DNA from: Vicinamibacteria bacterium
Lineage (GTDB): Bacteria > Acidobacteriota > Vicinamibacteria > Fen-336
Length of the DNA stretch: 34,493 nucleotides
Assembly (NCBI GenBank): GCA_025923995.1
Contig: JAICEW010000023.1
Coordinates: 1-34,493, forward strand
Reading direction: 5' to 3'
The number at the start of each line of letters is the position of its first letter. Position 1 is the stretch's first letter. This document shows, piece by piece, positions 21,376-25,557 of this stretch. A model generated the notes under the pieces. It made no database searches. It saw only the letters and a program-made list of their open reading frames with translations, and was not told where the DNA came from. The translations under genes were made by a program, and so were the position numbers.

Positions 21376-21416
21376 AGGCTCCACATAGAAGAAACAAACC
21401 GTTCCCTGGCGTGAGC

Positions 21417-21432: not shown

Positions 21433-21452
21433 CGCCACCCGAAGGAGATCGT

Positions 21453-21863
21453 GTGTCTTTTCGCAGCACGCGGAGGCGGAGCTCTCCGCGAAGGGGAGAC
21501 GTGTCGCTGGACGGGGATAAGGAGCAGTTCTTCGGCGCGCTGGGCGAGCGTCGCAAGACGAACTGGAAGCTGCAGCAGCTGTGCCGTCAGGTCGAGCGTG
21601 CCGCGGCGCTCGCTTTGGCCGAGGTGGATGTCCCGGTGGGGGCCGCCGTGGCCGAGGTGGCGCCGGCGCCCGACGCGTCGCGGCTCAGGGTCATCGTGGT
21701 CCTGGCCGCGGGCAGCGGCGCGCAGCACCTGGTGGACACCCGCGCCGCGCTGGAGCGGGACGCGGCGGCGTTCCGGTCGGAGATCGCGCGCGCGATCCAT
21801 CGCAAGCGCGTGCCGGAGGTCGTGTTCGACGTGAGGCTGGCGGAGGAGGTGGAGATTGGATGA
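21453..21863 (+). CDS. RbfA-like ribosome-binding factor
   Basis: This 136-residue protein resembles ribosome-binding factor A, a KH-type protein that binds helix 1 of 16S rRNA during late 30S maturation. The matching parts are RKTNWKLQQLCRQVERAAALAL, RVIVVLAAG and the C-terminal AAAFRSEIARAIHRKRVPEVVFDV. RbfA normally sits between infB and truB; here it is next to rtcB, so it is probably a specialised paralogue. The start GTG 21453 follows GAAGGAG with 5-nt spacing; in-frame GTG codons upstream, such as that at 21411, lack a ribosome binding site. The N-terminal extension (SFRSTRRRSSPRR) is strongly basic and may bind RNA. It overlaps rtcB by 8 nt. The family call is from pattern memory and fairly firm. 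Confidence 0.75.
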   Translation: MSFRSTRRRSSPRRGDVSLDGDKEQFFGALGERRKTNWKLQQLCRQVERAAALALAEVDVPVGAAVAEVAPAPDASRLRVIVVLAAGSGAQHLVDTRAALERDAAAFRSEIARAIHRKRVPEVVFDVRLAEEVEIG

Positions 21864-22986
21864 AGCGACGGTTCGGAGCTGGCTCGCCGAGCCGATGCCG
21901 GCGGCGGTCCAGGCGGCGATCGACCGCCTGGCCCGCAGCGAGGACGTGAAGCGCATCGCGGTGATGCCGGACGTACACCTCTCGGCGGACGTGTGCGTCG
22001 GCGTGGTCCTGGCCACGGGCGGCGTGCTCTATCCCAACGCGGTGGGCGGCGACATCGGCTGCGGCGTGGCCGCGATCGCGTTCGACGTCGAGGCGCGGGC
22101 GGTCGACGACGAGCGCGTCGCGGCGGCGGTGCTCGCCGGCCTCTACGCGCGCATCCCCTGCATCCGCCACTCACGGCGCACCAGCGCGCCGCTGCCGGAG
22201 GATCTCGACTCGTGGGAGCTGAGCGCGCCCGCGCTGGAAGCGCGCAAGGGCCAGGAGGCCGCCGCCCAGCTGGGCACCCTGGGCCGCGGGAACCACTTCG
22301 TGGAGCTGCAGCAGGGCGAGGACGGCCGCCTGTGGGCGATGGTGCACAGCGGCTCGCGCGGCATCGGCCAGGCCATCCGCGACCACCACCTCGCGCGGTG
22401 CCCGGCGGGACGGCAGGGGCTCCGCTTCGTGGACGCCGGCAGCGAGGCCGGGCGCGCCTACCTGGCGGACGCGTCGTGGGCGGTCGCGTACGCGGCGGCG
22501 AGCCGGCGCGCGATGGCGGACGCGCTCGGCCACGTCGTCGCGCGCGTGCTGGGGGCCCAGGCGGACGCGGGCTCGTTCGTCGACTGCAACCACAACCACG
22601 TCCGCCGCGAGACGCACGCCGGCGAGACGCTCTGGGTCCATCGCAAGGGCGCGATGCCGGCCGCGGACGGGGAGCCCGGGCTCATCCCCGGCTCCATGGG
22701 CACGCCCAGCGTCCACGTCGTCGGCCGCGGCTGCGTCGAGGCGCTCTGCTCCAGCGCGCACGGGGCGGGCCGGCGCCTGAGCCGCACCGATGCGCGGCGC
22801 GCGATCTCCACGCGCGACGTCGGCCGCGAGATGCGCGGCGTGTGGTTCGACCATCGGGTGGCCACGGGCCTGCGCGAGGAGGCGCCGTCCGCCTACAAGG
22901 ACATCGACGGCGTGCTGCGGGCGCAGCACGAACTCGTCCGCATCGTGCGCCGGCTGCGTCCGGTGCTGTCGTTCAAGGGGGTCTAG
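21856..22986 (+). CDS. rtcB: RNA ligase RtcB (short, RtcB2-like form)
   Basis: This 376-residue protein is an RtcB RNA ligase, which joins 2',3'-cyclic-phosphate or 3'-phosphate ends to 5'-OH ends using GTP and Mn2+. Metal and active-site motifs are PDVHL (D39, H41), GGDIGCG (D66, C69), GRGNHFVE, VHSGSR, CNHNHV and the guanylylated His in SSAHGAGRRLSR (H302). It is shorter than E. coli RtcB and fits the compact type seen in stress-repair operons such as RtcB2-PrfH. The TTG start at 21856 follows GGAGGTGGAG and keeps the conserved opening WLAEPMPAAV; ATG 21895 would cut it. It overlaps the RbfA-like gene by 8 nt and ends 2 nt before the next gene. No archease or PrfH gene is near. Confidence 0.92.
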   Translation: MDEATVRSWLAEPMPAAVQAAIDRLARSEDVKRIAVMPDVHLSADVCVGVVLATGGVLYPNAVGGDIGCGVAAIAFDVEARAVDDERVAAAVLAGLYARIPCIRHSRRTSAPLPEDLDSWELSAPALEARKGQEAAAQLGTLGRGNHFVELQQGEDGRLWAMVHSGSRGIGQAIRDHHLARCPAGRQGLRFVDAGSEAGRAYLADASWAVAYAAASRRAMADALGHVVARVLGAQADAGSFVDCNHNHVRRETHAGETLWVHRKGAMPAADGEPGLIPGSMGTPSVHVVGRGCVEALCSSAHGAGRRLSRTDARRAISTRDVGREMRGVWFDHRVATGLREEAPSAYKDIDGVLRAQHELVRIVRRLRPVLSFKGV

Positions 22987-22988
22987 GC

Positions 22989-23645
22989 ATGGCCACGAAG
23001 AAGCTGGCACGAACGGTCGTCGAAGGAGGCCGCGCCGGATACTCCAAGTGGGACCGGAGGCGGCGCAACCGCTCGCAACGCCGCCTGCGGTTCGACGAGG
23101 AGGGCGATCGGCTTCACGGGAAGGACTGCGCACCCGGCTGGCGCGGGTTCGACGACTGCCTGAAGCCACTGCGGCGCTGGATCGACAGTCACGTCGGACG
23201 CGGGTGGAACAACGTGTATCGCGATTTCTGCGCCCTCACCGATCGGCGCACGGTGAAGGGCTGGCACCTCGACGACCACCTGCAGGGAATGGTCGACCGC
23301 GGCGACCCGCTCGCGTACGGGCGCTTCTACGTCGACGGCCGAGGCATCCTCCGCCGCAAGGATCGAGTCCCGCGTGAGCGCGGGACCGGCTACTGGGAGC
23401 AGCGGCGGGCGCTCGACTGGGCCCGTGGCCGCCAGGTCATCGAGCACGGCGGCACGGCCTTCTGGACCGCGGACGCGGTCGACGACCCGGTCGCGGCCAG
23501 CCGTCAGGGGCCGCGGCTGACGGATCGCGAGATCGCGTTCTGGACGTCGCTGGCCGAGGACGTCCGACGCACGCTCCGCTACGACGCGGAGGGCCGCCGC
23601 CGGCTCCGCGCCATTCCGCCCGCGAGGCGCGGGAACAGGGGCTGA
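22989..23645 (+). CDS. Unrecognised basic protein in the RtcB operon
   Basis: I do not recognise a named family. The 218-residue protein is rich in Arg and Lys and has no signal peptide or membrane segment. The N-terminus (YSKWDRRRRNRSQRRLRFDEE) looks RNA-binding. The central part, with PLRRWIDSHVGRGWNNVYRDF followed by VKGWHLDDHLQGMV, is dense in Trp, Arg and His and has the look of a conserved domain I recall in unannotated proteins of other soil bacteria. No catalytic motif is evident, and two Cys (GKDC, FDDC) are too few for a zinc finger. It begins 2 nt after rtcB, so it is in the same operon, and probably works on RNA or the ribosome with RtcB and the RbfA-like protein. Confidence 0.8.
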   Translation: MATKKLARTVVEGGRAGYSKWDRRRRNRSQRRLRFDEEGDRLHGKDCAPGWRGFDDCLKPLRRWIDSHVGRGWNNVYRDFCALTDRRTVKGWHLDDHLQGMVDRGDPLAYGRFYVDGRGILRRKDRVPRERGTGYWEQRRALDWARGRQVIEHGGTAFWTADAVDDPVAASRQGPRLTDREIAFWTSLAEDVRRTLRYDAEGRRRLRAIPPARRGNRG

Positions 23646-23801: not shown

Positions 23802-24650
23802 TCAGGCCGCCCCGGCGGCCGCGCGCCGCCCGATGAACGGCCGCGCGATCGCCATCAGGATCAGCACCAGCCCGAACGTGCAGACCATGGTCGCGCCCGT
23901 GGGCAGGTCCAGCCGCACCGACAGGTAGATGCCGAGCGCGGACACGATCGTGCCCATGCTCCAGCCGATGGCGAGCCGCCGGCCGATGCCCTCCGCGTAC
24001 AGCATCGCCGCCACCGACGGCACGATCAGGTAGCAGAAGACGAGCAGCACGCCCGCGATCGCGACGGACGAGGTCACCACGAAGCCGAAGGACGCGTAGA
24101 ACAGGAAGTCCCAGAGTCGGACGTTGAGGTGCGCGGGCGGCGCGTCGTGGCTGAGCGAGATGGCGAGGAACTTCTCGCGGCAGACGTAGTGGAACGCGCC
24201 CACCGCGGCGTAGAGCGCGGCCGTCTTCAGCACCTCGGGCCACGACACGGCCAGGATGTTCCCCACCAGCATGTCCTTGAGGTGCTCGCTCTCGGACGTG
24301 GCCTTGCTCATGGCCAGGATGGCCGCGGCGGACGCGACCGCGTAGGAGATGCCGATGATGGCCTCCTGCGGGATGCGCGCGCGGCGGCTGCGTATGGTCG
24401 AGAAGATGGCGGCCCCCACGAACGTGAAGCACAGGCTGATCCAGTACACCCAGGGACCGTGCGGGTCGTGGTCCGCGAACGGCAGCAGCAGGGCCACGGT
24501 CGCGCCCAGCGCGGCGATCTGCGCGAGGGAGAGGTCCACGAAGATGACGCCCCGCTCGACCACGTGCACGCCGAGGTAGGCGTGGATGCCGGTGAGGATC
24601 AGGCTGGCGGCAAAGGGCGCCGCCAGGAACCTCAGGATGTCGAAGTCCAT
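23802..24650 (-). CDS. Metal ABC transporter permease (ZnuB/MntB, ABC-3 family)
   Basis: This 282-residue protein has about eight membrane helices and the ABC-3 signatures: GIHAYLGVHVVERGVIFVDLSLAQIAALGATVALLL near the N-terminus, then EAIIGISYAVASAAAILAMSK, and GVLLVFCYLIVPSVAAMLYA. Such permeases carry Zn2+, Mn2+ or Fe2+ across the inner membrane with a separate ATPase. The ATG is one base after the stop of the solute-binding gene (TGACATG), so they are coupled. The ATPase that should complete the transporter is absent; only a permease relic lies downstream. It may be supplied from elsewhere in the genome. Confidence 0.92.
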   Translation of the reverse strand: MDFDILRFLAAPFAASLILTGIHAYLGVHVVERGVIFVDLSLAQIAALGATVALLLPFADHDPHGPWVYWISLCFTFVGAAIFSTIRSRRARIPQEAIIGISYAVASAAAILAMSKATSESEHLKDMLVGNILAVSWPEVLKTAALYAAVGAFHYVCREKFLAISLSHDAPPAHLNVRLWDFLFYASFGFVVTSSVAIAGVLLVFCYLIVPSVAAMLYAEGIGRRLAIGWSMGTIVSALGIYLSVRLDLPTGATMVCTFGLVLILMAIARPFIGRRAAAGAA

Positions 24651-24651
24651 G

Positions 24652-25557
24652 TCAGCGCGCTCCCGCGGCCCTGGCGAACTTGTCCACGTCGTAGTCGAAC
24701 AGCTTGATGTAGTCGGTGATGACCTTCTCGCCGCCGACCGACGGCGGCAGGACGAGCACGGCGGCGCCGGTCTCGCGTCCGATCGAGTTGGGCGTCTTGA
24801 GGTCGAAGTAGGGCTCGACCAGCAGCACCTTGATGCCCTGCGCCTTCATGGCCTTGATGAGGGCGATCGTGTGCTGGGGCGAGGGCGGCACCCCGGGCTT
24901 GGGCTCCACGAAGCCGATCACGTCGAGCCCGAAGCGGTCCGCGAAGTTGGTCCACGAGCGGTGGTACGTCACGATCTTCATCCCCTTGAAGGGCGCCATC
25001 GTCGCGTCCCAGCGCTTCTCGGCCTCGGCCAGCCGCCGGTCGAAGTCTGCGTAGCGCTGCTCGTAGTAGGCCGCGTTCGCGCGGTCCAGCTCCGAGAGCT
25101 TCGCCTTGACCGCCTGCGCGACCTTGCGTCCGTTGCCCGGGTCGAGCCAGTAGTGGGGGTTGCCCGAGGGGTGAACGTCGCCCATCGCGCGCGTGACGGT
25201 CCCGGTCGGGACGTCGAGGATGCGCACGCCCTGCGAGGCGTCCAGGTACCCGGGCGAGCCGGGCTGGATGCGGGCGTTGCGGCTCTGGGTGACGAGGGGC
25301 GGCAGCCACGAGACCTCCAGCTCGCGCCCGACGGCGATCAGCAGGTCCGCCTTGGCCAGGAGCAGGATGAAGCTGGGCTTGGCCTCCACGAAGTGCGGGT
25401 CCTGGTAGCCGCGCGCGATGGCGTCCACCTTGACCTTGTCCCCGCCCACCTCGCGGGCGATCGCGGCCATGTCCTCGGTGGCGCCCACCACGCGCAGCTG
25501 CGCCTGCGCCGACGACGCCATCATCACGGCGATGGGAGCGAACAGCAGTCTCTTCAT
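24652..25557 (-). CDS. Periplasmic metal-binding protein of an ABC transporter (ZnuA/TroA family)
   Basis: This 301-residue protein has a signal peptide (MKRLLFAPIAVMMASSAQAQ) and the cluster A-I fold. Metal ligands are H55 in DPHF, H135 in GNPHYWLDP and H199 in YHRSW; the fourth is an acidic residue in the C-terminal lobe. The long backbone helix lies between the lobes. The His-rich loop of many zinc-specific ZnuA proteins is missing, with only H129 in GDVHPSG, so Zn2+ is likely but Mn2+ is possible. It sits between the porin-like gene (9-nt gap) and the permease (1-nt gap) in one operon. Confidence 0.92.
   Translation of the reverse strand: MKRLLFAPIAVMMASSAQAQLRVVGATEDMAAIAREVGGDKVKVDAIARGYQDPHFVEAKPSFILLLAKADLLIAVGRELEVSWLPPLVTQSRNARIQPGSPGYLDASQGVRILDVPTGTVTRAMGDVHPSGNPHYWLDPGNGRKVAQAVKAKLSELDRANAAYYEQRYADFDRRLAEAEKRWDATMAPFKGMKIVTYHRSWTNFADRFGLDVIGFVEPKPGVPPSPQHTIALIKAMKAQGIKVLLVEPYFDLKTPNSIGRETGAAVLVLPPSVGGEKVITDYIKLFDYDVDKFARAAGAR

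Follow-up and report, generated by a model that had tools for sequence, protein, structure and literature searches.

Bacterial repair of broken ribosomes is known mainly from the RtcB2-PrfH system, and the locus described here raises the question of whether an RNA ligase of the RtcB family could be brought to damaged ribosomes by a different partner, a paralogue of RbfA. The window, by which we mean the whole stretch of 34,493 nucleotides that was analysed (contig JAICEW010000023.1 of a Vicinamibacteria bacterium, phylum Acidobacteriota), carries a three-gene unit on its + strand, at 21453 to 23645, with the following features:

21442 to 21455, + strand: AAGGAG ribosome-binding site, 5 nt before the GTG of the first gene, read from the sequence
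21453 to 21863, + strand: RbfA-like paralogue of 136 aa, with a GTG start at 21453 behind AAGGAG and a stop at 21861-21863
21856 to 22986, + strand: RtcB RNA ligase of 376 aa, with a TTG start at 21856 behind GGAGG and a stop at 22984-22986
22989 to 23645, + strand: third protein of 218 aa, with an ATG start at 22989 and a stop ending at 23645

The coordinates, starts and stops hold as they were given in an earlier note on this DNA, which had described three tightly packed genes, the first two overlapping by 8 nt and the last two separated by 2 nt. The frame of the first gene is open from a further GTG at 21411 as well, and a plausible ribosome-binding site precedes each of the three. The neighbours, which encode a prolyl oligopeptidase on the upstream side and a metal transporter of ABC-3/ZnuA type on the downstream side, are unrelated and lie on the opposite strand, and the trio is therefore an isolated unit. 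The transporter region (23802-25557, - strand) consists of genes for an ABC-3 permease and a ZnuA-type metal-binding protein, convergent with the trio. No toxin or damage gene was found near the trio, and a promoter scan of the locus found none, although such a scan says little at 72% G+C.

The first gene encodes a divergent paralogue of RbfA. Its product matches the Pfam family RBFA (PF02033) with an E-value of 7e-5 and 23.5-23.8 bits, under the curated cut-off of 34.7 bits; 30 of its 32 relatives match the same family at E <= 0.01 (best 5.5e-10), and a profile built from these relatives retrieves solved RbfA chains. The AlphaFold (AF2) model of the protein (mean pLDDT 82.5) predicts a KH-type, alpha-beta-beta-alpha-kink-alpha-beta fold with a kinked helix pair, as in RbfA. 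When this model was searched with Foldseek, all eight PDB matches with E <= 0.001 were RbfA, and the matches through rank 18 were RbfA or chains of 30S or mitoribosome assembly intermediates. In a tree built by a careful method, 31 RbfA-like proteins formed a group apart from canonical RbfA with a support of 100/99, the deep branches within the group being poorly resolved. A canonical rbfA is present elsewhere in the same genome (114 bits), between infB and truB in the order infB-rbfA-truB-rpsO-pnp (L142), which rules out the first gene as the genome's sole rbfA, and canonical RbfA is retained in nearly all genomes that carry the RbfA-like/RtcB pair. The separate clade, the fold match and this canonical copy, found at the very infB locus where a second rbfA was to be sought, bear out the earlier reading of the gene as an RbfA paralogue.

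The paralogue and canonical RbfA share the same fold and topology, but the RbfA-like proteins differ in their N-terminal extension, in their linkage to RtcB in many genomes, and in a signature near the C-terminus, R-[KR]-x-x-P, which is mostly RKR-x-P and reads RKRVP in the window copy, whereas canonical RbfA has at this position a hydrophobic residue followed by R. The AxG interhelical kink motif is only partly retained among the RbfA-like relatives (Ala in 16/32, Gly in 19/32) and is replaced by DAA in the window copy, so that a binding to the 30S subunit identical to that of canonical RbfA cannot be assumed.

The second gene encodes an RtcB with an intact active site. It matches the Pfam RtcB family (PF01139) with an E-value of 3e-81 and 274 bits against a cut-off of 27, and alignment to solved RtcB shows that the metal- and GMP-binding residues (Asp66, Cys69, Asn146, His147, His164, His246 and His302) are conserved. 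The trio's ligase had been likened to the compact RtcB2 enzymes, and it is compact, but in other respects this comparison failed. The protein scores 167.8 bits against the release_rtcB family TIGR03073 (cut-off 271.8) and 206.3 bits against PRK09588 (cut-off 407), while the PrfH-linked RtcB of L138, used as a control, passes both with 485 and 533 bits, and in RtcB trees built by a quick method the window's enzyme falls outside the PrfH-linked clade. These scores and the tree position rule out an assignment to RtcB2. No PrfH over the cut-off of 166.65 bits was found in the window's genome, whose assembly is 96.8% complete in 592 contigs; the two release-factor matches that it does hold, at 115 and 84 bits, are read as RF1 and RF2. 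The claim that PrfH is absent here, with an RbfA paralogue adjoining RtcB in its stead, is supported within this assembly. A second RtcB is encoded elsewhere in this genome.

To what extent the RbfA-like gene and the ligase belong together can be judged from their distribution. Approximately 85,000 genomes were scanned for RtcB, and the best 80 loci were analysed. Among these 80, an RbfA homologue lies directly upstream in 33/33 members of the window's RtcB clade that have upstream DNA, and the single member without an upstream RbfA sits at a contig end. The clade spans at least five phyla, Acidobacteriota (to which the window belongs), Planctomycetota, Myxococcota, Pseudomonadota (Parabeggiatoa) and Nitrospirota, and the intergenic distances in the pair loci range mostly from a slight overlap to about 40 nt, being longer in Myxococcaceae. 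An RbfA paralogue also occurs in the same operon as RtcB in three further RtcB lineages (L078, L073/L074 and L189). The RbfA-like proteins of Methylovulum nest beside those of Parabeggiatoa and planctomycetes, in the main group, whereas the Methylovulum RtcB belongs to another lineage, which indicates that the ligase was exchanged while the link was kept. The RtcB-paired RbfA paralogues of Myxococcaceae and of L078, a Polyangiaceae genome, group nearer to canonical RbfA, and their position suggests that an RbfA paralogue was recruited to RtcB separately in these lineages. We conclude that the RbfA-like protein and RtcB almost certainly constitute one functional module.

Other observations were made on the same loci. 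In a Methylococcaceae locus (L089, 1112-1315), a 68-aa RbfA-like frame, in which the N- and C-terminal ends are joined and the RNA-binding core is missing, lies near an RtcB from the same bacterial group as L073/L074, and is either degenerating or misassembled. The myxobacterial genomes of L048, L054, L049, L057 and L055 have five or six RtcB matches each, and carry, in addition to the RbfA-linked RtcB, an RtcB at a second locus that is linked to PrfH and/or to the family of the third protein. Plasmids that were searched yielded no RbfA-like gene, and the viral contigs searched yielded two RtcB loci, neither with RbfA; L035 and L036 (IMG/VR) are phage-like contigs in which RtcB lies directly upstream of an integrase-like gene.

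Examination of the RbfA-like genes themselves revealed that, in the window's phylum, the protein occurs in 3 of 396 genomes (above 100 bits; the other matches reach at most 57 bits), each time beside RtcB. Such a sporadic distribution speaks against a role of the pair in rRNA maturation, in which RtcB would join programmed 16S breaks, e.g. once an intervening sequence has been cut out, and the RbfA paralogue would present the ends to it. RtcB does serve as a splicing ligase in archaea and metazoa, but we know of no programmed 16S break in the lineages that carry the pair, and we consider this explanation highly improbable, even though RbfA works in late 30S maturation (PMC8201178).

In samples of Myxococcota and Planctomycetota, 14 of 36 RbfA-like genes adjoin RtcB and 22 (~60%) have no RtcB within 1.5 kb; in the wider stretches around 17 of these 22, no RtcB was seen. 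One planctomycete clade accounts for 10 of the solitary genes, in related planctomycetes. The solitary genes are found at the following loci:

Planctomycetota: L209-L212, L214-L216, L218-L226
Myxococcota: L192-L195, L198, L202

These copies indicate that the RbfA-like protein also has a function where no ligase gene lies next to its own, and that its partnership with RtcB is not exclusive. They could also be taken to mean that the two genes are merely co-regulated, the RbfA-like protein being an alternative 30S assembly or stress factor, as canonical RbfA is an assembly factor (PMC8201178), and RtcB an independent enzyme that is co-expressed with it under translation stress. However, the genes overlap or nearly abut in most loci, the pairing was regained with different RtcB lineages, and no further gene family recurs beside the RbfA-RtcB pair in the neighbourhoods examined, translation and assembly genes included. 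Co-regulation alone is therefore an unlikely explanation of the pairing.

As the earlier note had stated, the third protein is strongly basic (pI 10.9; 50 K+R against 31 D+E); it has no match in Pfam, PHROGs, PADLOC or the PDB sequences; a structure search also returned no PDB match, the model being confident only around a helical core at residues 51-101. Its family is basic throughout (pI 9.8-11.6) and shares the conserved core PLRRxLxSxVGRPWDxVxSE...HIxDH. A search with one sequence as query picked up distant, solitary members and missed the linkage to RtcB, which was revealed by a family profile. The members without RtcB nearby are:

L004-L011: members in the window's class
L020, 5851-6615: member in Myxococcus phage Mx1

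The phage Mx1 also carries a gene for a macro-domain protein a few kb from its third-family gene.

With the profile, the family was found to adjoin RtcB in 12 further loci, mostly in PrfH operons, which rules out the third gene as an unrelated neighbour and sustains the earlier view that the protein belongs with RtcB. Nannocystis and other myxobacteria hold such genes beside RtcB at L138, L139, L179, L180, L181 and L183-L187, mostly together with PrfH, and seven of the eight family members in the Myxococcota sample lie beside RtcB. The RtcB-linked member nearest to the window's protein, at 37% identity, is that of L181, a third-gene/RtcB pair. On a 1.3-Mb plasmid of Novosphingobium sp. KACC 22771 (L244, 3788-6058), a third-family gene, RtcB and PrfH follow each other in a row, in a region where the source collection has no gene annotated. 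One myxobacterial genome (L182/L189) has the same three families as the window in the order RbfA-like, third, RtcB, with an RtcB of a different lineage. Among the other members of the window's RtcB clade that were checked, none showed the third gene next to it. The earlier notion of a conserved trio stands for the RbfA-RtcB pair, which recurs across phyla, and fails for the third gene: the trio as a unit is ruled out for the clade at large, and recurs in that one myxobacterial genome. The conserved core is the pair, with the third gene outside it, and the third family is common to RbfA-type and PrfH-type RtcB systems, occurring mostly in PrfH operons. Operons of RFH (PrfH) and RtcB are known to carry charged, homologue-free accessory proteins (Burroughs and Aravind 2019, PMC6514570), and the third family, which fits these RFH-/RtcB-associated unknown proteins (RFR) in description and genomic context, the two grounds of the match, may be one of them. 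RbfA is not mentioned in the text of that paper.

The function of the pair is postulated by analogy with known systems. Colicin E3 cuts 16S rRNA in the decoding centre, between A1493 and G1494, and the ends that result are a cyclic phosphate and a 5'-OH. PrfH frees the damaged 70S ribosome, and RtcB2 seals the 30S subunit once the subunits have split (PMC9223846). Canonical RbfA is turned towards the 16S rRNA at the junction of h44 and h45, and prevents the top of helix 44 from docking (PMC8201178). Since the site of RbfA is the region of the colicin E3 cut and of RtcB2-PrfH action, a paralogue of RbfA would be well suited to the 30S-sealing half of such a repair. By this parallel, repair of the 30S subunit and its 16S rRNA is, on balance, the probable function of the pair, and it is somewhat probable that the RbfA paralogue guides RtcB to its presumed substrate, 16S rRNA broken at that end of the 30S subunit which holds the decoding centre. 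The points that weigh against this reading are the solitary RbfA-like genes, the partial retention of the AxG motif, and the lack of a toxin or damage gene near the trio. In the proposed sequence of events, an endoribonuclease (a secreted toxin, the toxin of a toxin-antitoxin system, or one acting under stress) would cut 16S rRNA close to the decoding centre or to the 3' end and produce ends with a 2',3'-cyclic phosphate and a 5'-OH. The RbfA-like protein would attach to the free, damaged 30S subunit where canonical RbfA binds, at the h44/h45 junction, and hold the upper part of helix 44 undocked so that the broken ends are exposed. RtcB, co-produced through translational coupling and presumably in physical contact with its partner, would then seal the break, and the basic third protein might aid in RNA binding, recruitment or release. 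Cuts beyond 1493/1494, such as those of MazF or in the anti-Shine-Dalgarno near the 3' end, fit the repair model equally well; 16S rRNA cut by MazF is a reported RtcB substrate (PMC9223846).

It is conceivable that the RbfA-like protein is instead a generic KH-type RNA-binding subunit that takes RtcB to tRNA halves or mRNA, the ribosome not being its substrate. The KH-type nature of the RbfA fold allows for this, a relaxed AxG kink together with a new basic R-K-R patch would be compatible with new RNA targets, and damaged tRNA has likewise been connected with bacterial RtcB (PMC7790460). However, RtcB has been joined to at least two subgroups of RbfA, apparently on separate occasions; this favours a feature that RbfA proteins have in common, namely 30S binding. 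The third family also occurs in PrfH operons, which are known to act on 16S rRNA in the ribosome. We therefore regard a generic RNA-binding role as doubtful, though credible, and retain 30S repair as the preferred reading.

The window's system can be compared with other RtcB operons. Like RtcB2-PrfH (RFH), for example in E. coli ATCC 25922, its core is a two-gene operon of RtcB and a descendant of a ribosome-acting factor, and the basic accessory family is shared between the two; the partner here is an RbfA paralogue and not a release-factor homologue, with no adjacent PrfH. RbfA-paired RtcB is thus an RtcB with a ribosome-acting partner that is distinct from RtcB2-PrfH. The RtcAB/RtcR operon shares the RtcB ligase for 2',3'-cyclic phosphate ends, but window-type pairs have no conserved neighbours, hence no sign of RtcA or RtcR, and their RtcB is compact. 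The archease-RtcB operon likewise combines RtcB with a small co-transcribed partner, but the partner in the window has a predicted RbfA fold and not that of archease. Our literature search found no paper linking RtcB with RbfA in a relevant way; the 2016 survey by Burroughs and Aravind (doi 10.1093/nar/gkw722), which might do so, was not covered.

There is about an even chance that the pair represents a second, PrfH-independent class of ribosome repair, with an RbfA paralogue that opens up the decoding centre again on damaged free 30S subunits for RtcB, and with a shared basic adaptor family that joins the RbfA branch to the PrfH branch. The three proteins provide a defined set for testing this possibility, and the accessory family that both have in common suggests that models of the RbfA-RtcB and of the PrfH-RtcB2 systems lack a component. 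If the proposal is true, 30S assembly factors that act on helix 44 can be re-used for rRNA repair, and repair would be predicted to take place on free 30S subunits, and not on stalled 70S ribosomes.
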